The notes under the pieces: generated by a model
What the model was told of the DNA's origin: nothing
Database searches by the model: none
Seen by the model: the letters and a program-made list of their open reading frames with translations, nothing else
Program-made: the position numbers and the translations under genes
From: Candidatus Methylomirabilota bacterium
GTDB lineage: Bacteria > Methylomirabilota > Methylomirabilia > Methylomirabilales > Methylomirabilaceae
Direction: 5' to 3'
Length of the DNA: 11,234 bases
NCBI GenBank assembly: GCA_016200385.1
Contig: JACQEV010000332.1
Coordinates: 1 to 11,234, forward strand
Shown here: positions 338 through 7,713 of the stretch, in pieces
How the letters are laid out: each line of letters opens with the position of its first letter
Numbering within the stretch: position 1 is the stretch's first letter

Positions 338-1563
338 TGGCAGAGGCGAGGGTCGCCCTCGTTCATGATTGGCTGACCGGAATGAGGGGCGGAGAACGCT
401 GCCTGGAGGCCCTCTGTGACCTCTTTCCAGAAGCGGATCTCTTCACGCTGCTGCACGTGAAGGGAAGCGTGTCGGAGATCATCGAACGGCGGCGGATCCA
501 CACGTCGGTGATCCACATGCTGCCGTTTGCCGGTCGCCGCTACCGATACTATCTTCCGTTATTCCCGTGGGCTGTCGAGCGGTTCTCACTCGAGGGGTAC
601 GACGTGATCCTGTCCGACAGCCACTGCGTCGCCAAGGGGGTCAGGGTTCCGGCCGGGGCTCTCCACATCGCGTATGTCTACACCCCGATGCGGTACATCT
701 GGGACCTGCATTATGCCTACGTTGGCGCCGGTCGGATGGGCCCGCTGTCCCGACTCATGCTTCGGGCGATGACGGGCTATCTGCGGCGGTGGGACCTCGC
801 GGCCAACGACCGCGTCGATCACTTTGCCGCCATCTCCCAGCATGTGGCAGATCGGATCCGACGCCACTACGGGCGGGAGGCCCGGGTGATCTACCCTCCG
901 GTCGAGACCGCCCGCTTTCACATCGCGAGCCGCACAGACGACTACTACCTCGTGGCTGGCGCTTTTGCCCCATACAAGCGGATCGATCTCGCCATCGAGG
1001 CGTTTAACCGTGTCCGGCGGCGCCTGGTGATCGTGGGTGACGGCCAGGAGAACCGTCGCCTGCGACGCATGGCTGGTCCGACCATCGAATTTCTGGGGTG
1101 GCGTCCGGACGGGGAGTTCGCCGAGCTGCTCAGCCGCTGCCGCGCGTTGCTCTTCCCTGGCGAGGAGGATTTCGGGATCCTCCCGGTCGAGGCGATGGCC
1201 TGCGGGCGGCCGGTGATCGCGTACGGAAAGGGCGGCGTCACGGAAACGGTCATCCCACTCAATAGTTTCGAGTTTCGAGTTTCGAGTTTGGAGTCAAGAG
1301 CGTCGCCGAACCCGAAACCCGAAACCCGAAACCCGAAACCCGAAACCCCGACGGGCGTGTTTTTCTACGAGCAGACCGTCGAGGGGTTGATCCGGGCGAT
1401 CGAGCTGTTCGATCGATCGTCGGATCAGTTCGATCCGGAGGCACTTCGGGCCCATGCGCTGACCTTTGATCGCGCGATCTTTGAGAAGCGGATGGCTGCG
1501 TTCGTCGCTGAACAGTACGAAGGTTGGAAGAATCAGGGCCGGAGCCGCCGACGACGATGCTGA
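334..1563 (+). CDS. Glycosyltransferase family 4, WbaZ-like, with translated heptamer-repeat insert
   Basis: This is a cytoplasmic GT-B enzyme of about 409 residues, probably adding a hexose (mannosyltransferases occur in this subfamily) to a lipid-linked glycan. The N-terminal domain starts with VALVHDWLTGMRGGE and carries SDSHCVAKGV and YTPMRYIWD, all typical of WbaZ-like GT4. The C-terminal domain begins near G209 (GAFAPYKRID) and has VIVGDGQE at 232-239 and the E-x7-E donor-site pair E278/E286 within EEDFGILPVE. I chose ATG 334 because a purine-rich GGAAGGAAGG lies just upstream and the start overlaps the previous stop; ATG 337 is equally possible. A longer frame from 274 only adds non-conserved residues. 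Residues 310-339 are encoded by repeat element A (1264-1348), between the family motifs GGVTETVI and TGVFFYEQT. The frame is intact on both sides. The 3' end overlaps the next gene by 7 nt. Confidence 0.88.
   Translation: MMAEARVALVHDWLTGMRGGERCLEALCDLFPEADLFTLLHVKGSVSEIIERRRIHTSVIHMLPFAGRRYRYYLPLFPWAVERFSLEGYDVILSDSHCVAKGVRVPAGALHIAYVYTPMRYIWDLHYAYVGAGRMGPLSRLMLRAMTGYLRRWDLAANDRVDHFAAISQHVADRIRRHYGREARVIYPPVETARFHIASRTDDYYLVAGAFAPYKRIDLAIEAFNRVRRRLVIVGDGQENRRLRRMAGPTIEFLGWRPDGEFAELLSRCRALLFPGEEDFGILPVEAMACGRPVIAYGKGGVTETVIPLNSFEFRVSSLESRASPNPKPETRNPKPETPTGVFFYEQTVEGLIRAIELFDRSSDQFDPEALRAHALTFDRAIFEKRMAAFVAEQYEGWKNQGRSRRRRC
1264..1348 (+). repeat. Element A: opposed heptamer arrays, inside the GT4 gene
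   Basis: The left arm is AGTTTCG three times (1264-1284) then AGTTTGG, decaying into AGTCAAG. The right arm is CCGAACC (1306-1312) followed by five perfect CGAAACC units (1313-1347). The right unit is the reverse complement of the left unit except at one base per heptamer (A opposite C), so the two arms could fold into an imperfect hairpin with a loop of about 7-14 nt. The element lies wholly inside the GT4 reading frame and is translated as part of residues 310-339. Confidence 0.9.
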
Positions 1564-2960
1564 AGCGACACAGCCAGTTTCTTGAAAGCCTGATGCTCCT
1601 GTCCGACCTGCTGGCGATCTCCGTAAGCTGGATGGTCGCGTACTATCTCCGGTTCTACTGGGGTCCTGTTCCGGTCTACCGCGGCGTCCCCGACATCCGG
1701 CCATATCTCCTCCTGCTGGCGCTGATCGTCATCGTCTGGGCCGCAGCCTTCAAGGCCTTCGGACTCTACCGTCCGCGGCGCATCTCCTCTCGCTTGGCGG
1801 AGGTGAGTGACATCGCCCAGGCATGCACGCTTGCCGTCCTGATCCTCGTGGCCCTCACGTTCTTCTTCAAACAGTTCGAGTTCTCACGATTGGTGATCGT
1901 CTATTTCTGGGGGTTCAGCATTCTCTCGGTCAGCCTTGTCAGGGGTTCCTTCCGCGAGAGTCTCCGCCTCATGAGGCGCAGGGGGTACAATCTCCGCCAC
2001 ACCGTGATCGTCGGAGAAGGGATGTTGGCCCGAAGGGTCGTCGAGAGAATCCGTGCGCGTCCGGAATTGGGCCTTCGCATCGCCGGGCTCCTGGTCGCGG
2101 ATCCCAAGACGGTGGGGGAAACGATGGAGGGACTGCACGTGCTCGGAACCTACGAGCAGGCGGGGGAGATCGCTCGGGAGCTGTCAATTGACAAGGTGTT
2201 CATCGCCATTCCCCTGGACGCCTATGGCCGGATGGAGGGGATCCTTCGAAGCCTTGAAGAGGCGATCGTGGACATCAACGTCGTTCCCGACCTCTACCAG
2301 TACATTACACTGCGCGGAGGGGTGGAGGAGTTCGAAGGCCTTCCCCTCATCAGTTTGCAAGACTCGCCCTCATACGGCTGGAACCGTGTTGCCAAGCGGG
2401 TGTTGGACATCGGCTCGTCGGGTATCGCCCTGCTCATCACGGCGCCACTGCTGCTGCTTCTCGCGGCCACTATCAAGCTGACATCGCCCGGCCCGGTGCT
2501 GTACCGTCAGGAGCGGATGGGTCTTGATGGCCGAACCTTTCATATGCTGAAATTTCGATCTATGAGAACCGAGGCTGAAGAAGACACCGGGGCGGTCTGG
2601 GCCACTCGGGACGACCGCCGCAGGACGGCGATCGGCGCGCTGCTTCGCCGGACTTCCCTGGACGAGCTGCCACAACTGATCAATGTCCTCCGGGGGGAAA
2701 TGAGTCTGGTGGGTCCCCGTCCAGAGCGGCCGGTCTTTATCGAGGAGTTCCGGAAGCAGATCCCACGGTATATGCTCCGGCACAAGGTGAAAGCAGGCAT
2801 CACCGGATGGGCCCAGGTCAATGGGTGGAGGGGCGATACCTCTCTTGAGAAACGGATCGAGTGCGACCTGTTCTACATCGAACACTGGTCGTTGCTGTTC
2901 GATCTGAAGATTCTCTGGTTGAGTCTCTGGAAGGGGTTCATCCACAAGAATGCCATGTGA
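1557..2960 (+). CDS. Undecaprenyl-phosphate hexose-1-phosphate transferase (polyprenyl glycosylphosphotransferase, WcaJ/EpsE type)
   Basis: This inner-membrane enzyme (about 467 aa) transfers a sugar-1-phosphate from a UDP-sugar, often UDP-glucose or UDP-galactose, to undecaprenyl phosphate, the first step in building a lipid-linked polysaccharide. Four hydrophobic segments lie near residues 10-32, 48-67, 88-108 and 113-132. A Rossmann-like CoA_binding_3 region follows (VIVGEGMLARR to about 270). The bacterial sugar transferase domain starts at K280 (KRVLDI), with a membrane helix at about 288-308 and then SPGPVLYRQERMG. D369-E370 in SLDELPQLINVLRGEMS, then VGPRPERP and GITGWAQVNG, are the catalytic-core motifs. 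The last residues, LSLWKGFIHKNAM, are the usual family ending. ATG 1557 overlaps the GT4 stop by 7 nt. TTG 1524 is in frame but would add 11 unusual residues. Sugar specificity cannot be read from the sequence. Confidence 0.92.
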   Translation: MLKRHSQFLESLMLLSDLLAISVSWMVAYYLRFYWGPVPVYRGVPDIRPYLLLLALIVIVWAAAFKAFGLYRPRRISSRLAEVSDIAQACTLAVLILVALTFFFKQFEFSRLVIVYFWGFSILSVSLVRGSFRESLRLMRRRGYNLRHTVIVGEGMLARRVVERIRARPELGLRIAGLLVADPKTVGETMEGLHVLGTYEQAGEIARELSIDKVFIAIPLDAYGRMEGILRSLEEAIVDINVVPDLYQYITLRGGVEEFEGLPLISLQDSPSYGWNRVAKRVLDIGSSGIALLITAPLLLLLAATIKLTSPGPVLYRQERMGLDGRTFHMLKFRSMRTEAEEDTGAVWATRDDRRRTAIGALLRRTSLDELPQLINVLRGEMSLVGPRPERPVFIEEFRKQIPRYMLRHKVKAGITGWAQVNGWRGDTSLEKRIECDLFYIEHWSLLFDLKILWLSLWKGFIHKNAM

Positions 2961-2961
2961 A

Positions 2962-3050
2962 AGTTTCGAGTTGCGAGTTGCGAGTGTTGGGTTCTGAAAG
3001 GCTCTTAGTAGACCCGAAACCCGAAACTCGGAACCCGGAACTGGGAAGCA
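2962..3050 (+). repeat. Element B: opposed heptamer arrays between phosphotransferase and epimerase
   Basis: The left arm is AGTTTCG, AGTTGCG, AGTTGCG, AGTGTTG, GGTTCTG (2962-2996). After a 13-nt loop the right arm is AGACCCG, AAACCCG, AAACTCG, GAACCCG, GAACTGG (3010-3044), ending GAAGCA. The element fills almost the whole 93-bp gap between stop 2960 and ATG 3054. Both arms are more degenerate than in element A. The GGGAAG at its 3' end is also the only Shine-Dalgarno-like sequence for the epimerase gene. Confidence 0.85.
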
Positions 3051-3053
3051 GAT

Positions 3054-4004
3054 ATGAAAATTCTGGTGACCGGAGGGGCCGGGTTCATCGCGTCGCATCT
3101 CGTGGACGCGTTGGTGAAGGAGGGCCATGAGGTGGTCGTGGTGGACGACCTTTCTATGGGCAGACGGGAACAGGTCCATCCCTCGGCCCGCTTCTACCAA
3201 GTGGATATCCGCCAGCGGGAGGCCATGGACGCGATCTTTCGCGCCGAGCGCCCGGAACTGGTCAACCATCACGCGGCCCAGGGTAACTTACGCCGGTCGA
3301 TGACCGAGCCGTCGTTTGACGCCTCTGTGAATATCGTCGGGTCACTGATCCTGATCGAGCTCGCCCATGCCTACGAGGTCAGGAAGTTCGTCTACATCTC
3401 GTCGGGTGGAGCGGTCTATGGCGAACCGCAGCGCCTGCCCGTTGACGAACACCATCCGATCCGTCCGCTGTCCGCCTACGGGCTGAGCAAATGTACAGTG
3501 GAACGGTACCTGGAAATTCTCCGCGATTGGTTTGGCCTGGACTACACCACCCTGCGGTATGCCAATGTCTACGGCCCCAGGCAGGATCCCAATGGCGAGG
3601 CCGGCGTGGTGGCGATTTTCAGCCGGCAGATGCTCGCCGGCCAGCGCCCGACGATTTTCGGCGATGGCACCAAGACCCGGGATTACGTCCATGTGGATGA
3701 TATCGTCCGGGCGAACCTCCTGGCGATGGTGGAGGAGAGAGGCGCCGGCAGGGTCTACAACCTGGGCCTCGGGCGTGAGGTCAGCGATCGGCAGATCTTT
3801 GAACTGGTTCGATCAGCGGTGGGTGCCACGCTGGAGCCGATCCTGGAGGCCAAACGTCCTGGGGAGATCGACCGAATCTGTCTGGACGCCTCACGCGCCA
3901 AGGCTGAACTCGGCTGGGAGCCGACCATTCCCCTTGAGGAGGGGATCACCCGCACCGTCGCATTCTACCGGGAGGCTCAGGGCCGGGTGAGCGAAACTGA
4001 TTGA
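3054..4004 (+). CDS. NAD-dependent epimerase/dehydratase, UDP-glucose 4-epimerase-like (extended SDR)
   Basis: This soluble extended short-chain dehydrogenase/reductase of 316 residues most likely interconverts a UDP-hexose and its C4 epimer to supply a nucleotide sugar to neighbouring glycosyltransferases. The N-terminal NAD site reads TGGAGFIAS; the third glycine of the usual GxxGxxG is alanine here. HHAAQ follows the third strand, and YISSGGAVYGEP holds the catalytic Ser (S116/S117). The catalytic pair is Y142 and K146 (YGLSK). RYANVYGPRQDP and TRDYVHVDDIV are typical substrate-domain motifs. The length is normal for GalE-like proteins. ATG 3054 is preceded by GGGAAG at about 3043-3048, which belongs to repeat element B. 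Exact substrate (glucose/galactose, GlcNAc/GalNAc or uronic acid) is undetermined, so I give no symbol. Confidence 0.85.
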   Translation: MKILVTGGAGFIASHLVDALVKEGHEVVVVDDLSMGRREQVHPSARFYQVDIRQREAMDAIFRAERPELVNHHAAQGNLRRSMTEPSFDASVNIVGSLILIELAHAYEVRKFVYISSGGAVYGEPQRLPVDEHHPIRPLSAYGLSKCTVERYLEILRDWFGLDYTTLRYANVYGPRQDPNGEAGVVAIFSRQMLAGQRPTIFGDGTKTRDYVHVDDIVRANLLAMVEERGAGRVYNLGLGREVSDRQIFELVRSAVGATLEPILEAKRPGEIDRICLDASRAKAELGWEPTIPLEEGITRTVAFYREAQGRVSETD

Positions 4005-4072
4005 ATTTTCCCGCGATTTGGGATAGCCTAACTGAGTAAAATTTCAGGAGTTTCCCGGCGGGAGGTGCGACG
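4005..4072 (+). other. AT-rich gap without heptamer repeats, leader of rfaE1
   Basis: This 68-bp stretch is noticeably AT-richer than its surroundings and is the only gap of more than 20 bp between 1557 and 7725 without a heptamer element. It contains TAAAAT at 4037-4042 and TTGAAT at 4001-4006, neither with a well-spaced partner, so a promoter is possible but not shown. Its 3' end holds the Shine-Dalgarno sequence of rfaE1. Confidence 0.5.
4051..4066 (+). promoter_or_regulatory. Strong Shine-Dalgarno of rfaE1 with potential sequestering hairpin
   Basis: GGGAGGTG (4060-4067) is a near-perfect Shine-Dalgarno sequence, and its core GGGAGG ends 7 nt before the ATT at 4073. No ATG, GTG or TTG in the rfaE1 frame is available at a suitable distance, so this site decides the start. 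TTTCCC at 4051-4056 can pair with GGGAGG at 4060-4065 across a GGC triloop (three G-C, one A-U, two G-U pairs in RNA), which could mask the site. Function is inferred. Confidence 0.6.
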
Positions 4073-5089
4073 ATTCGGTACCAGGAGATTCTGGCCCGTT
4101 TTCCCGAACAACAACTCCTCGTCCTCGGCGATATCATGGTGGACGAGTACATCTGGGGGAGTGTTTCTCGGATTTCTCCGGAAGCTCCGGTCCCGGTCGT
4201 GGAAGTCAAGGCCGAGAGCTTTCGCTTGGGGGGTGCAGCCAATGTCGCTGCGAACATTCGAACCCTGGGTGGGCGGGCGATCCTGGTGGGCGTGATCGGC
4301 AACGACCCTCATGCGGAGCGACTGGTTGATCAGCTTCAGGCCGTTGGAATCAAGGGGGACGGAGTGGTGGTGGACCGGAACCGCCCGACCACGATCAAGA
4401 CGAGGGTCGTCGCGGGCAGCCAGCAGGTCGTGCGGTTCGACCGGGAGAGCGCGCTGGAGATGTCGAAGGAGGCAACGGAGCGGGTACTGGAGCTCGCCGT
4501 GGAGCACCTTCGGGAGGCGGATGCGCTGCTCATTTCTGATTACGCCAAGGGGGTGATCAGCAAGCTGGTGGCCAGACAGATCATCCCCCTCGCTCGACGG
4601 CGCAAGAAGATTATCGTTGTCGATCCGAAAGTGCACCATTTCCACCTCTACAAAGGGGCGACTGTCGTTACCCCCAACCATCACGAAGCGGCCGCCTTTG
4701 CCCGGTTTCGCCTGCGCGAAGGGGGAGACCCCGATGAGCTGGGGCGGGAGCTGCAACAGAAGCTCGAGGTGAACGCCGTGCTGGTGACAAAGGGGGACCA
4801 GGGAATGTCGCTCTTTGAGGACGGCGGAGTCACCCACATCCCCGCAGTCGCCAAGGAGGTCTATGACGTCACGGGGGCGGGAGATACCGTCGTCGCCACG
4901 CTGGGCCTGGCCCTGGCATCGGGCGCCTCACTGAAGGAGGCGGCTGTGATAGCCAACCATGCGGCTGGGGTGGTGGTCGGGAAGATGGGAACCGCGACCG
5001 TTAGCCAGTCGGAGCTCAAGGACGCGCTGAAGCAGAACAGCTCCAGGTTCCAGACCTCAAGTTCCAAGCTGGAAAAGGGTACTGGCTGA
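4073..5089 (+). CDS. rfaE1: D-glycero-beta-D-manno-heptose-7-phosphate kinase (RfaE1/HldE N-domain type, PfkB family)
   Basis: This soluble carbohydrate kinase phosphorylates D-glycero-D-manno-heptose 7-phosphate at C1 on the way to ADP-heptose for the LPS inner core. Family landmarks are [11 protein letters not shown] followed by [14 protein letters not shown], the substrate loop [10 protein letters not shown] (from G53), SDYAKG, DPK and TPN, and the PfkB signature DVTGAGDT with catalytic base D271. The end [13 protein letters not shown] is typical. The first ATG (4136) falls inside the conserved GDIMVDEY motif, so it cannot be the true start. Starting at ATT 4073, 7 nt after GGGAGG, gives 338 residues with 18 ahead of GD, as in homologues. 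The frame is open only back to 4040. There is no fused nucleotidyltransferase domain, so the partner (RfaE2/HldC) must be elsewhere. The last 16 or so residues ([16 protein letters not shown]) come from the left arm of repeat element C. Confidence 0.88.
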
Positions 5090-5122
5090 ACCCGGAACCC
5101 GAAACCCGGAACACGAAACCCC
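5044..5122 (+). repeat. Element C: opposed heptamer arrays across the rfaE1 stop
   Basis: The left arm reads CAGGTTC, CAGACCT, CAAGTTC, CAAGCTG (5044-5071) and lies inside the 3' end of rfaE1. The right arm reads GAACCCG, GAACCCG, AAACCCG, GAACACG, AAACCCC (5088-5122) and is intergenic. CAGGTTC differs from the reverse complement of GAACCCG by one base. The rfaE1 stop TGA (5087-5089) uses the first two bases of the right arm, and the pyrG Shine-Dalgarno follows within 4 nt of the array's end. Confidence 0.82.
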
Positions 5123-5123
5123 G

Positions 5124-5133
5124 AAAGGAGGTG
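5124..5133 (+). promoter_or_regulatory. Shine-Dalgarno of pyrG
   Basis: AAAGGAGGTG is almost the full complement of the 16S rRNA tail. It sits directly after repeat element C and points to ATG 5136 rather than the in-frame GTG at 5133, which overlaps the site itself. Confidence 0.8.
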
Positions 5134-5135
5134 TG

Positions 5136-6743
5136 ATGTCGACGAAGTTCATCTTTGTGACCGGCGGAGTACTGTCGTCGCTCGGCAAGGGGTTAGCCTC
5201 CGCCTCCATCGGCTGTCTGCTGGAAAGCCGCGGCTTCAAAGTGACGATGTTGAAATGCGACCCGTACATCAATGTGGATCCCGGCACCATGAACCCCTTC
5301 CAGCACGGGGAGGTCTTCGTCACCGACGATGGCTCTGAGACCGACCTTGACCTGGGCCATTACGAGCGCTTCACTGACCTTGTTCTGACCAAGGCCAGCA
5401 ATATCACGACAGGTCAGATTTACCACTCAGTCATCACCAAGGAGCGTCGCGGCGACTACCTGGGTGGCACCGTTCAGGTCATCCCTCACATCACTGATGA
5501 GATCAAGCGCGCGATCCACCGGGTGGCGACGGGCGTGGACGTCGTGATCGTGGAAGTGGGCGGGACGGTTGGCGATATCGAGAGCCTGCCATTCCTCGAG
5601 GCCATCAGGCAGTTCAGGGGGGACGTCGGGAGGGAGAATGTCCTGTGCATCCACCTGACGTTGGTTCCCTATATCGCGCCGGCCGGCGAGCTGAAGTCGA
5701 AGCCGACTCAGCACAGCGTGAAGGAGCTGCTCCAGATCGGGATTCAACCCGATATCCTGCTGTGCCGGACCGATCGATTCCTGCCGAAAGAGCTGAAGGC
5801 CAAGATCGCGCTGTTCTGTAATGTCTCCGAAAAGGCTGTCATCACCGCGAAGGATGTGGACAGCCTGTACGAGGTCCCGTTGGTCCTGCACAGCGAGGGA
5901 CTGGACGCGATCATCGTCCAGATGCTGGGCCTGCCGAATACCCAGACGGATCTGGCGGGATGGGAGGCGATTGTCCGGAAGATCAAGGAGTCCAAGGCCA
6001 GCGTCACCATCGCTGTGGTGGGGAAGTACCTGGACCTGAAGGACTCCTACAAGAGTCTGACTGAGGCGATCATTCACGGCGGCATCGCCAACGACTGCCA
6101 TGTCCGGGTGAAGGCGGTGGATGCCGAGAAGGTGGAGCGCGACGGCCCCAAGGAGCACCTTCACGATGTGTCAGGTGTCCTGGTGCCTGGAGGCTTCGGC
6201 AGCCGAGGAATCGAGGGCAAGATTGCGGCCATCGCCTTCGCCCGTGAGGAGCGGGTCCCGTTCCTCGGGATCTGTTTGTGGATGCAGTGTGCCGTGATCG
6301 AATTCGCCCGGCATGTCTGCGGGCTGAAGGACGCGAATAGCCGCGAGTTTGACTCGAACACCCCGCACCCGGTCATCGATCTGATGCCCGAGCAGCGAGG
6401 TATCACGAACCTGGGAGGGACAATGCGGCTAGGCGCCTATCCGTGCCGTATCGTCCCTGGCTCCGTCGCCTACACAGCGTACGGGACCGAGGAGATCAGC
6501 GAGCGACATCGACATCGGTACGAGGTCAACAACGACTACCGAGATCTGTTAGAGCAGCATGGAATACGACTGTGCGGGTTTTCACCCGATAACAAGCTGG
6601 TGGAGATGATCGAGCTGCCGGATCATCCCTGGTTCGTAGGCGGGCAATTTCACCCCGAGTTCAAATCGCGCCCCAGGCGGCCTCACCCGCTGTTCCGGGA
6701 GTTCATCAAGGCCTCTCTCCAACGGAAGGAGACTAGGGTATAG
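5136..6743 (+). CDS. pyrG: CTP synthase (glutamine-hydrolysing)
   Basis: It makes CTP from UTP, ATP and glutamine in the cytoplasm; CTP is needed by KdsB to form CMP-Kdo, which explains its place next to kdsA. The 535-residue length is normal. The synthetase domain opens with [16 protein letters not shown] (P-loop K18), followed by [20 protein letters not shown], the [12 protein letters not shown] segment, and [12 protein letters not shown]. The class I glutamine amidotransferase domain starts around residue 288 (VTIAVVGKY). It has PGGFGSRG, nucleophile C380, and H506/E508 in FHPEF. The conserved nucleophile elbow is normally G-I-C-L-G-M-Q; here it is G-I-C-L-W-M-Q, with W382 (TGG, 6279-6281) in place of glycine. 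[10 protein letters not shown] is intact. The stop TAG and last codons fall in the left arm of repeat element D. Confidence 0.97.
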
Positions 6744-6810
6744 GGGTTAGGGTTTAGGGTAGAGGGGCCCTTCCCGAAACCCGAAACCCGAAACCCGAAA
6801 CCCGAAACCC
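6735..6810 (+). repeat. Element D: opposed heptamer arrays between pyrG and kdsA
   Basis: The left arm is AGGGTAT, AGGGGTT, AGGGTTT, AGGGTAG, AGGGGCC (6735-6769). The right arm is five perfect CCCGAAA units plus CCC (6773-6810). The left core AGGGTTT matches the reverse complement of the right unit except for one base per heptamer. The pyrG stop TAG (6741-6743) lies in the left arm, and the kdsA ATG (6812) starts one base after the right arm. The loop is only about 3 nt. Confidence 0.9.
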
Positions 6811-6811
6811 T

Positions 6812-7708
6812 ATGCCACTGACAAAGCAGGTACGAATTGGCGATCTCACATTGGGCGGCGGAGCGCCGCTGGTCCTGGTGGCTGGTCCCTGCGTTATCGA
6901 GAGCGAGGAGGACCTTTTCAGGACCGGCGAGGCGATCAAGGCAGCCTGTGATGCCTGTGAGGTCCCCTTTATCCTCAAGGCCTCGTACGACAAGGCCAAT
7001 CGTTCGTCAGCGGGTTCATTCCGCGGTCCTGGCCTTCGCAAGGGGCTCTGTATCCTGCAGCGCGTGAAGGAGAAGCTGGGCGTACCGGTCCTCTCAGACG
7101 TTCACGAAGTGGACCAGGTGCCTGCCGCCGCGGAGGTGCTCGATATCATCCAGATCCCGGCATTCTTGTGCCGCCAGACAGATCTCCTCCTTGTCGCTGG
7201 CCGGACCGGCAAGCCGGTCAACGTCAAGAAAGGGCAGTTCCTCTCTCCGTGGGACGCCCGGAATATCGTTGAGAAGCTTCAGTCTGCCGGCTCAGAGCAG
7301 ATCATCCTGACCGAGCGCGGGACGAGCTTCGGATACAATAACCTGGTGGTGGACGTCCGCTCCCTGCCGGTCATGCGCAGCTTCGGCTATCCGGTCCTGT
7401 TCGACGCCACCCACAGTCTGCAACTGCCCGGGGGGGCAGGACACGCCTCTTCAGGGCAGGCGGAGTTCATCCCTTACCTGGCACGGGCCGCCGTGGCGGT
7501 AGGGGTCGATGGCCTTTTCATGGAGGTCCACCCTGACCCCGCGAACGCGCCAAGCGACGGGCCAAACATGCTTCGACTGGATGCGCTGCCGGGACTCTTG
7601 AGGCAGGTGATCAGGGTTCAGCAGGCGGTAGCGCCCTCTATCGATGAGCAGTCAGCGATCAGCAATCAGCCATCAGCGAAAGGCTGCCGGCTGACCGCTG
7701 AGAGCTGA
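6812..7708 (+). CDS. kdsA: 3-deoxy-D-manno-octulosonate 8-phosphate synthase, metal-dependent class
   Basis: It condenses phosphoenolpyruvate with arabinose 5-phosphate to Kdo-8-phosphate, the committed step of Kdo synthesis for LPS. The TIM-barrel DAHP/KDOP synthase motifs are clear: AGPCVIES near the N-terminus, [71 protein letters not shown] and [16 protein letters not shown]27 in AGPC is the metal ligand of class II (Aquifex-type) enzymes; class I enzymes such as E. coli have Asn there. The ATG at 6812 has no Shine-Dalgarno, because its leader is the right arm of repeat element D, yet the N-terminus aligns well. The protein has 298 residues, longer than the usual 270-285. The extra tail from about [10 protein letters not shown] to the stop is encoded by repeat element E, whose right arm supplies the TGA. 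Confidence 0.96.
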
Positions 7709-7713
7709 GAGCT
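7650..7713 (+). repeat. Element E: opposed heptamer arrays of a different sequence, at the kdsA 3' end
   Basis: Four left heptamers ending TCAGC (AGTCAGC, GATCAGC, AATCAGC, CATCAGC; 7650-7677) face four right heptamers beginning GCTG (GCTGCCG, GCTGACC, GCTGAGA, GCTGAGA; 7683-7710) across a GAAAG loop, followed by GCT. The five-base core TCAGC/GCTGA pairs in nearly every unit while the other two positions vary. The layout matches elements A-D, but the unit sequence is unrelated. It encodes the C-terminal tail and stop (7706-7708) of kdsA and ends 13 bp before the msbA start. Confidence 0.9.

Follow-up and report, generated by a model that had tools for sequence, protein, structure and literature searches.

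Opposed heptamer arrays in a Methylomirabilota genome are probably gene-less derivatives of elements that carry an S23 gene

We analysed an 11,234-nt stretch of DNA from Candidatus Methylomirabilota bacterium (contig JACQEV010000332.1, assembly GCA_016200385.1; the window, meaning the whole stretch), in which arrays of tandem 7-nt units, most of them arranged as opposed pairs, recur among the genes, and whose relation to genes of the S23 family is our subject here. The window is contig 114 of a draft genome of 2.21 Mb that is 81% complete. It encodes a glycosyltransferase, a WcaJ-type phosphotransferase, a sugar epimerase, an RfaE domain I protein, CTP synthase and KdsA, together with an MsbA-like transporter (below the curated cut-off) and more glycosyltransferase-like proteins. 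Five elements, A to E, lie among these protein-coding genes, not in a 23S rRNA gene, and their loops are too short to hold a gene.

Element A (1264-1348) consists of a left arm of GTTTCGA units (1264-1294), a loop and a right arm of GAAACCC units (1309-1348), and stands in frame within the glycosyltransferase open reading frame (ORF; 334-1563). Element B (2962-3047), with arms at 2962-2985 and 3012-3047, is of the GTTTCGG type. The right array of C (5044-5125) is built of GAACCCG units (5088-5125) and its left side is weak; D (6734-6810) joins a GGGTTTA-like left arm (6734-6760) to a CCCGAAA right arm (6773-6810), and E (7647-7713) a CAGCNNT arm (7647-7677) to a GCTGANN arm (7682-7713). All five are given without strand. 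Tandem Repeats Finder called period-7 arrays at each, for C on the right side only. An earlier note on this DNA had described five opposed elements in the gaps between genes. The arrays are real and A, B, D and E are opposed, C having a right array without an opposed partner; the placement in gaps needs correction, since A is part of a coding frame and the rfaE, pyrG and kdsA ORFs extend into C, D and E, where they stop at 5089, 6743 and 7708, respectively. With the exception of C, the window elements are terminal inverted repeats without a gene, as in miniature inverted-repeat transposable elements. At 6805-6814, the right arm of D reaches the kdsA start codon and leaves no obvious ribosome-binding site.

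The abundance of such arrays exceeds chance. Among 117,161 bases of the same genome (the window and contigs C1-C20), 18 period-7 arrays scored at least 11, versus none in each of three first-order Markov simulations, and the other periods from 5 to 16 gave 0-2 arrays each, save the harmonic 14 with 13. An opposed partner, defined as one at most 150 bp away that scored above 97.5% of random flanks, was present for 14 of the 18, the array of C being among the four without. Genome-wide, AACCCGAAACCCGAAACCC with up to two mismatches matched 88 times and its reversed control never, and GTTCATA, GTTGACG and GGGTATA occur as further units in the sample. The proposal of a genome-wide family with opposed arms is thus borne out. 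In the complete sister genome G005, 15 arrays in 400,000 bases compare with one in simulation, and no period other than 14 exceeded three. Units are similar inside one arm, and the two arms of an element are unlike each other. As had been expected, the arms can form hairpins: RNA-fold z-scores (plus/minus strand) are -6.5/-8.9 for A, -4.0/-3.2 for B and -5.0/-5.3 for E, modest for D (-2.3/-1.9) and weakest for C (-0.6/-1.7).

After locating the window genes on 20 related contigs, we retrieved the sequence of the junctions between them. Members of the genus have elements at shared junctions, but the units differ, and some elements are missing. Junction B, for example, carries GTTTCGA, GGGTATA, CAGCNNN, GTGTCNA or GTTTCTA units depending on the species, and at junction C the close relatives G007 and G014 differ by unit-level insertions and deletions. 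In each of the 11 genomes in which both halves were found (ten sisters and the window genome), element A lies in the reading frame of the glycosyltransferase. By eye, the element is missing at junction D of G003 and G004, which measures 5 nt, and junction B lacks heptamers in G006 and contains a different palindrome in G009. The gap 5' of rfaE (4005-4072, + strand) is free of elements, as the earlier note had stated, and carries instead a stretch conserved in the sisters that we read as a putative promoter. Among the sisters, G010 alone has a heptamer element in this gap, upstream of the promoter-like stretch (by eye).

The same junctions hold other inserts. At junction C of L203 (G010), L201 (G009) and L206 (G004), the loop between GGGTNTA-type arms is occupied by a second element, of the GTCATTGCGAGGGAG...GAAGCAATCTC type, and L201 carries another palindromic element, of the GTAGGGGC...GCCCCTAC type, at junction B and before rfaE. 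At junction D of L200 (G006), pyrG and kdsA are separated by an insert of 1,382 nt that contains a 385-codon frame resembling a membrane protein, behind the remnant AGGGTATAGGG.

In several sisters, the arms enclose a gene. G013 and G008 have an ORF of about 120 codons between the arms at junction D, as do G001, G010 and G013 at junction E, and the two such proteins tested match PF05635, the 23S rRNA-intervening sequence protein (E 5e-38 and 1.5e-39), as well as bAvd, weakly and below cut-off. PF05635 occurs in 27 of 41 genomes (25 above cut-off) and in none of 14 control genomes. The window genome has three S23 genes: that on C277 is flanked by GTTTCGG arms and that on C382 by CAGC arms, and the third is a fragment on C8 next to a GAACTCT array. 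The first two arm types recur in window elements A, B and E and in the right arm of D, with C left unassigned. Solo forms may arise by internal deletion of S23 elements, as a short stretch that by eye resembles the 3' end of an S23 gene persists at junction E of G003 and G009. Phage records contained no S23 match at 1e-5, and the motif GxxRxxxSxxxNxxE, quoted in PMC3936711, was found in none of 170 S23 domains in the form written for our scan.

Inverted flanks are a general property of S23 genes. We compared each upstream flank with the reverse complement of its own downstream flank and counted a pair as inverted if it scored better than 95% of swapped partners. The genes come from the 41 genomes searched for PF05635 above and from 30 cross-phylum genomes chosen for variety from (CGGGTTT)n array loci among the matches listed; the S23 matches used, 60 automatic loci and 80 more by descending score, are not all of those listed. 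After removal of placements below 40 bits, sequence duplicates and flanks shorter than 150 bp, with two loci unplaced, 139 of 142 S23 genes were kept, and 17 of 60 PIN-domain control loci were dropped near contig ends. Flanks were mutually inverted at 114 of the 139 S23 genes versus 3 of the 43 PIN-domain controls from the same two genome sets, and period-7 arrays stood at 83 of 139 versus 3 of 43; periods 8 (17), 9 (7), 12 (6) and 6 (5) also occur at S23 genes. When six genomes already known to have an S23 gene near an array are set aside, the cross-phylum part comprises 65 genes, of which 52 are inverted and 33 have period 7; in Flavobacteriales not selected for arrays, 21 of 27 are inverted. 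In Flavobacteriales L459-L487, inverted S23 arms are often made of 8-nt units, such as GGTGATAC.

PF05635 scored above cut-off in 26 of the 30 cross-phylum array genomes, or, more fairly, in 20 of 24 when the six already known to contain S23 are left out (loci L104, L107, L118, L119, L120 and L185). Some groups have a high base rate (19 of 40 in Flavobacteriales, G045 included), and co-occurrence in a genome is therefore by itself modest support. Among eight annotated plasmid copies inspected by eye, opposed arms are clear in L488, L489, L493 and L495, L490 and L494 have a short downstream match, and L492 is ambiguous. In the remaining copy, on Pseudanabaena galeata plasmid pPg_01 (L491:1-1154), the S23 gene lies between cas6 and cas4 and its long AAAAGCT/AAAAGCC arrays are direct, not inverted; PF05635 genes are known from cas loci (PMC3936711).

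The heptamer follows the type of S23 protein. For the 99 of 142 S23 genes with period-7 arms, we compared protein identity with unit distance, the latter being the best match among the top three units per side; genome and phylum labels were assigned by hand, with Rhodothermaceae treated as distinct from Bacteroidota, and with Gamma and Delta as separate groups of Pseudomonadota. Of the 25 cross-phylum pairs with an identity of 60% or more, 23 had a unit in common when one mismatch was allowed, and sharing fell to 36% of 83 pairs at 50-60%, 16% of 590 at 40-50% and 4-10% below 40%. When arms were shuffled within phyla, none of 1000 permutations reached the observed correlation. The 25 pairs form seven clusters, each of which contains a cross-phylum pair within one mismatch. 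Only 191 of their 724 fourfold sites (26%) are identical, and neutral positions are therefore saturated while the units are kept. Conversely, S23 pairs from one genome with less than 35% identity shared units in 0 of 52 cases. The S23 types and their heptamers include GTTTCGG, CAGCNNT, AAGGCGT, GGTTCNN and others.

Xanthomonas campestris has an S23 protein, XCC0516 (2gsc, five chains). This protein is reportedly a pentamer. A pentamer model of 'one subunit, one heptamer' found no support in array lengths, which peak at 3-4 units with a median of 4.3 (n=187).

For one type, array load also follows the resident gene. Load was counted in 95 genomes of the phylum as overlapping matches to (GTTTCGG)3 with up to two mismatches, and to (CAGCNNT)4 for a second type. 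The (GTTTCGG)3 pattern matched 62 times in G000, the window genome, 56 times in G009 and 34 times in G013, at most 8 times in each of the other 92 genomes, and the control pattern never. An S23 of the C277 type (at least 80% identity) resides in exactly these three genomes (84% in G013, 80% in G009), and the next best anywhere is at 50%. By KdsA identity to G000, G003 (82%) and G006 (85%) are closer than G013 (76%), yet they have neither the GTTTCGG load nor a C277-type S23. Arrays of (CAGCNNT)4 occur in 34 of the 95 genomes and a CAGC-type S23 (at least 68%) in six, with 21-68 matches; as a second load test they were set aside, since their load does not track the resident S23. In family f7 (57 genomes), CAGC matches occur in two and one weak S23 match was seen, PF05635 itself having been searched in six of the 57, and the four genomes of family f4 have neither a CAGC match nor an S23 match; this pattern is confounded with ancestry.

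One copy of such an element interrupts an rRNA gene. In Azospirillum lipoferum 4B, a plasmid-borne 23S rRNA gene is interrupted by an S23 gene, which falls within the span of the RF02541 match; by eye, the S23 gene is bordered by roughly four 7-nt units to either side. Two other replicons of that genome carry an uninterrupted 23S gene, and their flanks agree with those of the filled copy for 336 and 351 nt (0 or 1 mismatches). The empty site is a 19-nt hairpin tip, where the filled copy has 473 nt, which suggests replacement of the hairpin tip. The matching flanks cannot date the insertion because rRNA copies are homogenised. Intervening sequences have been described as rRNA inserts with no accepted origin, and that of Coxiella has terminal inverted repeats, an S23 ORF in its loop and excision by RNase III (PMC4990558).

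We consider it probable that the opposed arrays are the two ends of a small S23 element family and that the arrays in the window are solo, gene-less derivatives. The complete form would comprise a heptamer array, one S23/four-helix-bundle gene (PF05635, TIGR02436) and an inverted heptamer array, with each S23 type going with its own heptamer and GTTTCGG solo arrays abounding only where the matching S23 resides. The S23 protein would recognise its cognate heptamers at both ends and may promote the multiplication or persistence of its own element and, in trans, of gene-less copies, after which the units within an arm could homogenise by slippage-like turnover. Directly observed here are the architecture, the association, the cognate pairing, the load correlation for one type and one filled and empty rRNA pair in the same genome. 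The association of S23 with arrays and the cognate pairing are well supported.

Several results weigh against this interpretation. We identified no recombining enzyme and observed no movement, no target duplication is visible in the filled/empty comparison of the Azospirillum rRNA gene, and none is obvious by eye at the G010 insertion before rfaE. Only 8 of the 15 arrays in the 400-kb sample of G005 have an opposed partner. G005, G002, G009 and G019 contain 41-47 CAGC matches without a CAGC-type S23; such arrays could be relics. Over all cross-phylum pairs, the correlation between protein identity and unit distance is weak, with a Spearman coefficient of -0.15, and stems from the close pairs. 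In the unselected Flavobacteriales, period 7 accounts for 7 of 27 S23 genes and period 8 for 6 of 27. Finally, S23 domains are not basic (median pI 6.5, n=170).

The strongest competitor is an element acting at the RNA level, an explanation we regard as unlikely, although several observations are in its favour. In this case, the arms would form an RNA stem as in a 23S intervening sequence, and a cut by RNase III would free the S23 message or trim the host transcript and so make the insertion tolerable, possibly with S23 binding RNA. The strong RNA folds of A, B and E, the Azospirillum copy at a 23S rRNA hairpin, the excised Coxiella intervening sequence (PMC4990558) and the resemblance of S23 to Avd would all fit. 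However, cutting at A, within a coding frame, would sever the message, and arm mismatches on the sense strand of 114 S23 elements comprise 182 G-U and 210 A-C pairs (p 0.17), with no excess either way. Because G-U is not preferred, RNA pairing is seemingly not what keeps the arms alike, and recognition of the arms at the DNA level, as judged from these sequences, fits better than RNA pairing.

The earlier note had favoured slippage or templated copying of 7 nt. That the arrays are satellites made by replication slippage, with opposed arms from inverted duplication and S23 merely sharing the same spacer DNA, seems to us quite improbable, even though the units of an arm are uniform and change from arm to arm and, at a single junction, from species to species, G007 and G014 differ by whole units at junction C, and many bacteria have an excess of heptameric repeats (cited in PMC4692102). 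Such satellites would not account for a unit that tracks the S23 type across phyla at saturated divergence, for an array load that tracks it too in the case of the GTTTCGG type, or for control genes in the same genomes that are rarely flanked (3 of 43). Slippage alone is therefore rejected as the main account, and templated copying finds no support as one, while slippage-like turnover inside arms is still likely. Least probable of all, in our view, are binding sites of a host transcription or translation regulator kept at operon junctions. Elements do recur at the same operon junctions in sisters, and translational regulation has been proposed for TAACTGA repeats (MacGregor 2015; PMC4679880), but units at one junction have changed wholly between sister species, A lies inside a protein-coding frame, and this explanation predicts no link to S23.

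The occurrence of the same S23-plus-repeat pairing in many phyla points to a widespread, unrecognised mobile DNA family. A bolder version of the S23 element interpretation, which we put forward tentatively and with somewhat more doubt than conviction, is that these are minimal mobile elements spanning phyla, in which an Avd-like, probably pentameric S23 protein reads its own heptamer iterons by a lineage-specific heptamer 'code'. Complete elements would measure about 0.5 kb, gene-less hairpins would be multiplied in trans, and rRNA intervening sequences would be copies that landed in rRNA genes. S23/IVP four-helix-bundle proteins are common in environmental bacteria, and we know of no function for them; heptamer arrays have been reported repeatedly, to our knowledge never with an agent. 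Our searches of the open-licence literature found no report of a link between S23 and heptamers. If true, the cognate link would join S23 proteins, heptamer arrays and rRNA intervening sequences, give the uncharacterised S23 family a testable role with predicted binding specificities, and account for much repetitive intergenic DNA in many phyla.

Among known repeats, short tandemly repeated repetitive (STRR) sequences are tandem heptanucleotide repeats. Each arm in the window is a tandem heptamer array, and the arms are paired in opposition. Like STRR and TAACTGA repeats, the arrays are intergenic tandem heptanucleotides with a patchy distribution across phyla; TAACTGA repeats differ in being direct, with 169 sets and one indirect (PMC4679880). 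The remark in the earlier note that no standard class could be named needs a qualifier here, since heptamer arrays in convergent arrangement had already been published for Xanthomonas. Rehm et al. (2015; PMC4692102) reported GGGAATC repeats in that genus, with 70 and 75 convergent pairs in two genomes, and GGGGA(C/T)T repeats in Nostoc, which share with our arrays a dispersed, mostly intergenic location and, in Xanthomonas, frequent convergent pairs. The emphasis of that paper is on G-quadruplexes, and its passages on mobile elements report generally no association with them.

The S23 protein itself has a relative in Avd of diversity-generating retroelements, as PF05635 S23 and Avd are homologous four-helix bundles (PMC10053308). 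Unlike Avd, S23 occurs with many arrays but no reverse transcriptase (PF00078) in G000, G001 and G006. PF00078 is present in 17 of 41 genomes, including G009 and G013, and its absence from G000 (81% complete), G001 and G006 led us to set aside a reverse transcriptase, which the likeness to Avd had suggested, as a required mover. In G013 (C28:5886-6994), an S23 gene directly follows a reverse transcriptase domain, an arrangement like that of diversity-generating retroelements.

Repetitive extragenic palindromic (REP) sequences are single palindromes tagged GTAG or CGTC. The S23 elements resemble the system of REP and RAYT (TnpA-REP) in combining small gene-less hairpins with a cognate gene that is flanked by the same sequence and whose presence the load tracks; they differ in that no catalytic site is known in the S23 four-helix bundle and that the ends are tandem 7-nt arrays instead of a single tagged palindrome of 20-40 bp. 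Close in architecture, too, are the 23S rRNA intervening sequences, in which a PF05635 ORF lies between terminal inverted repeats and whose Azospirillum copy has 7-nt arms, while the elements of the window differ from them in lying outside rRNA genes and carrying no gene.

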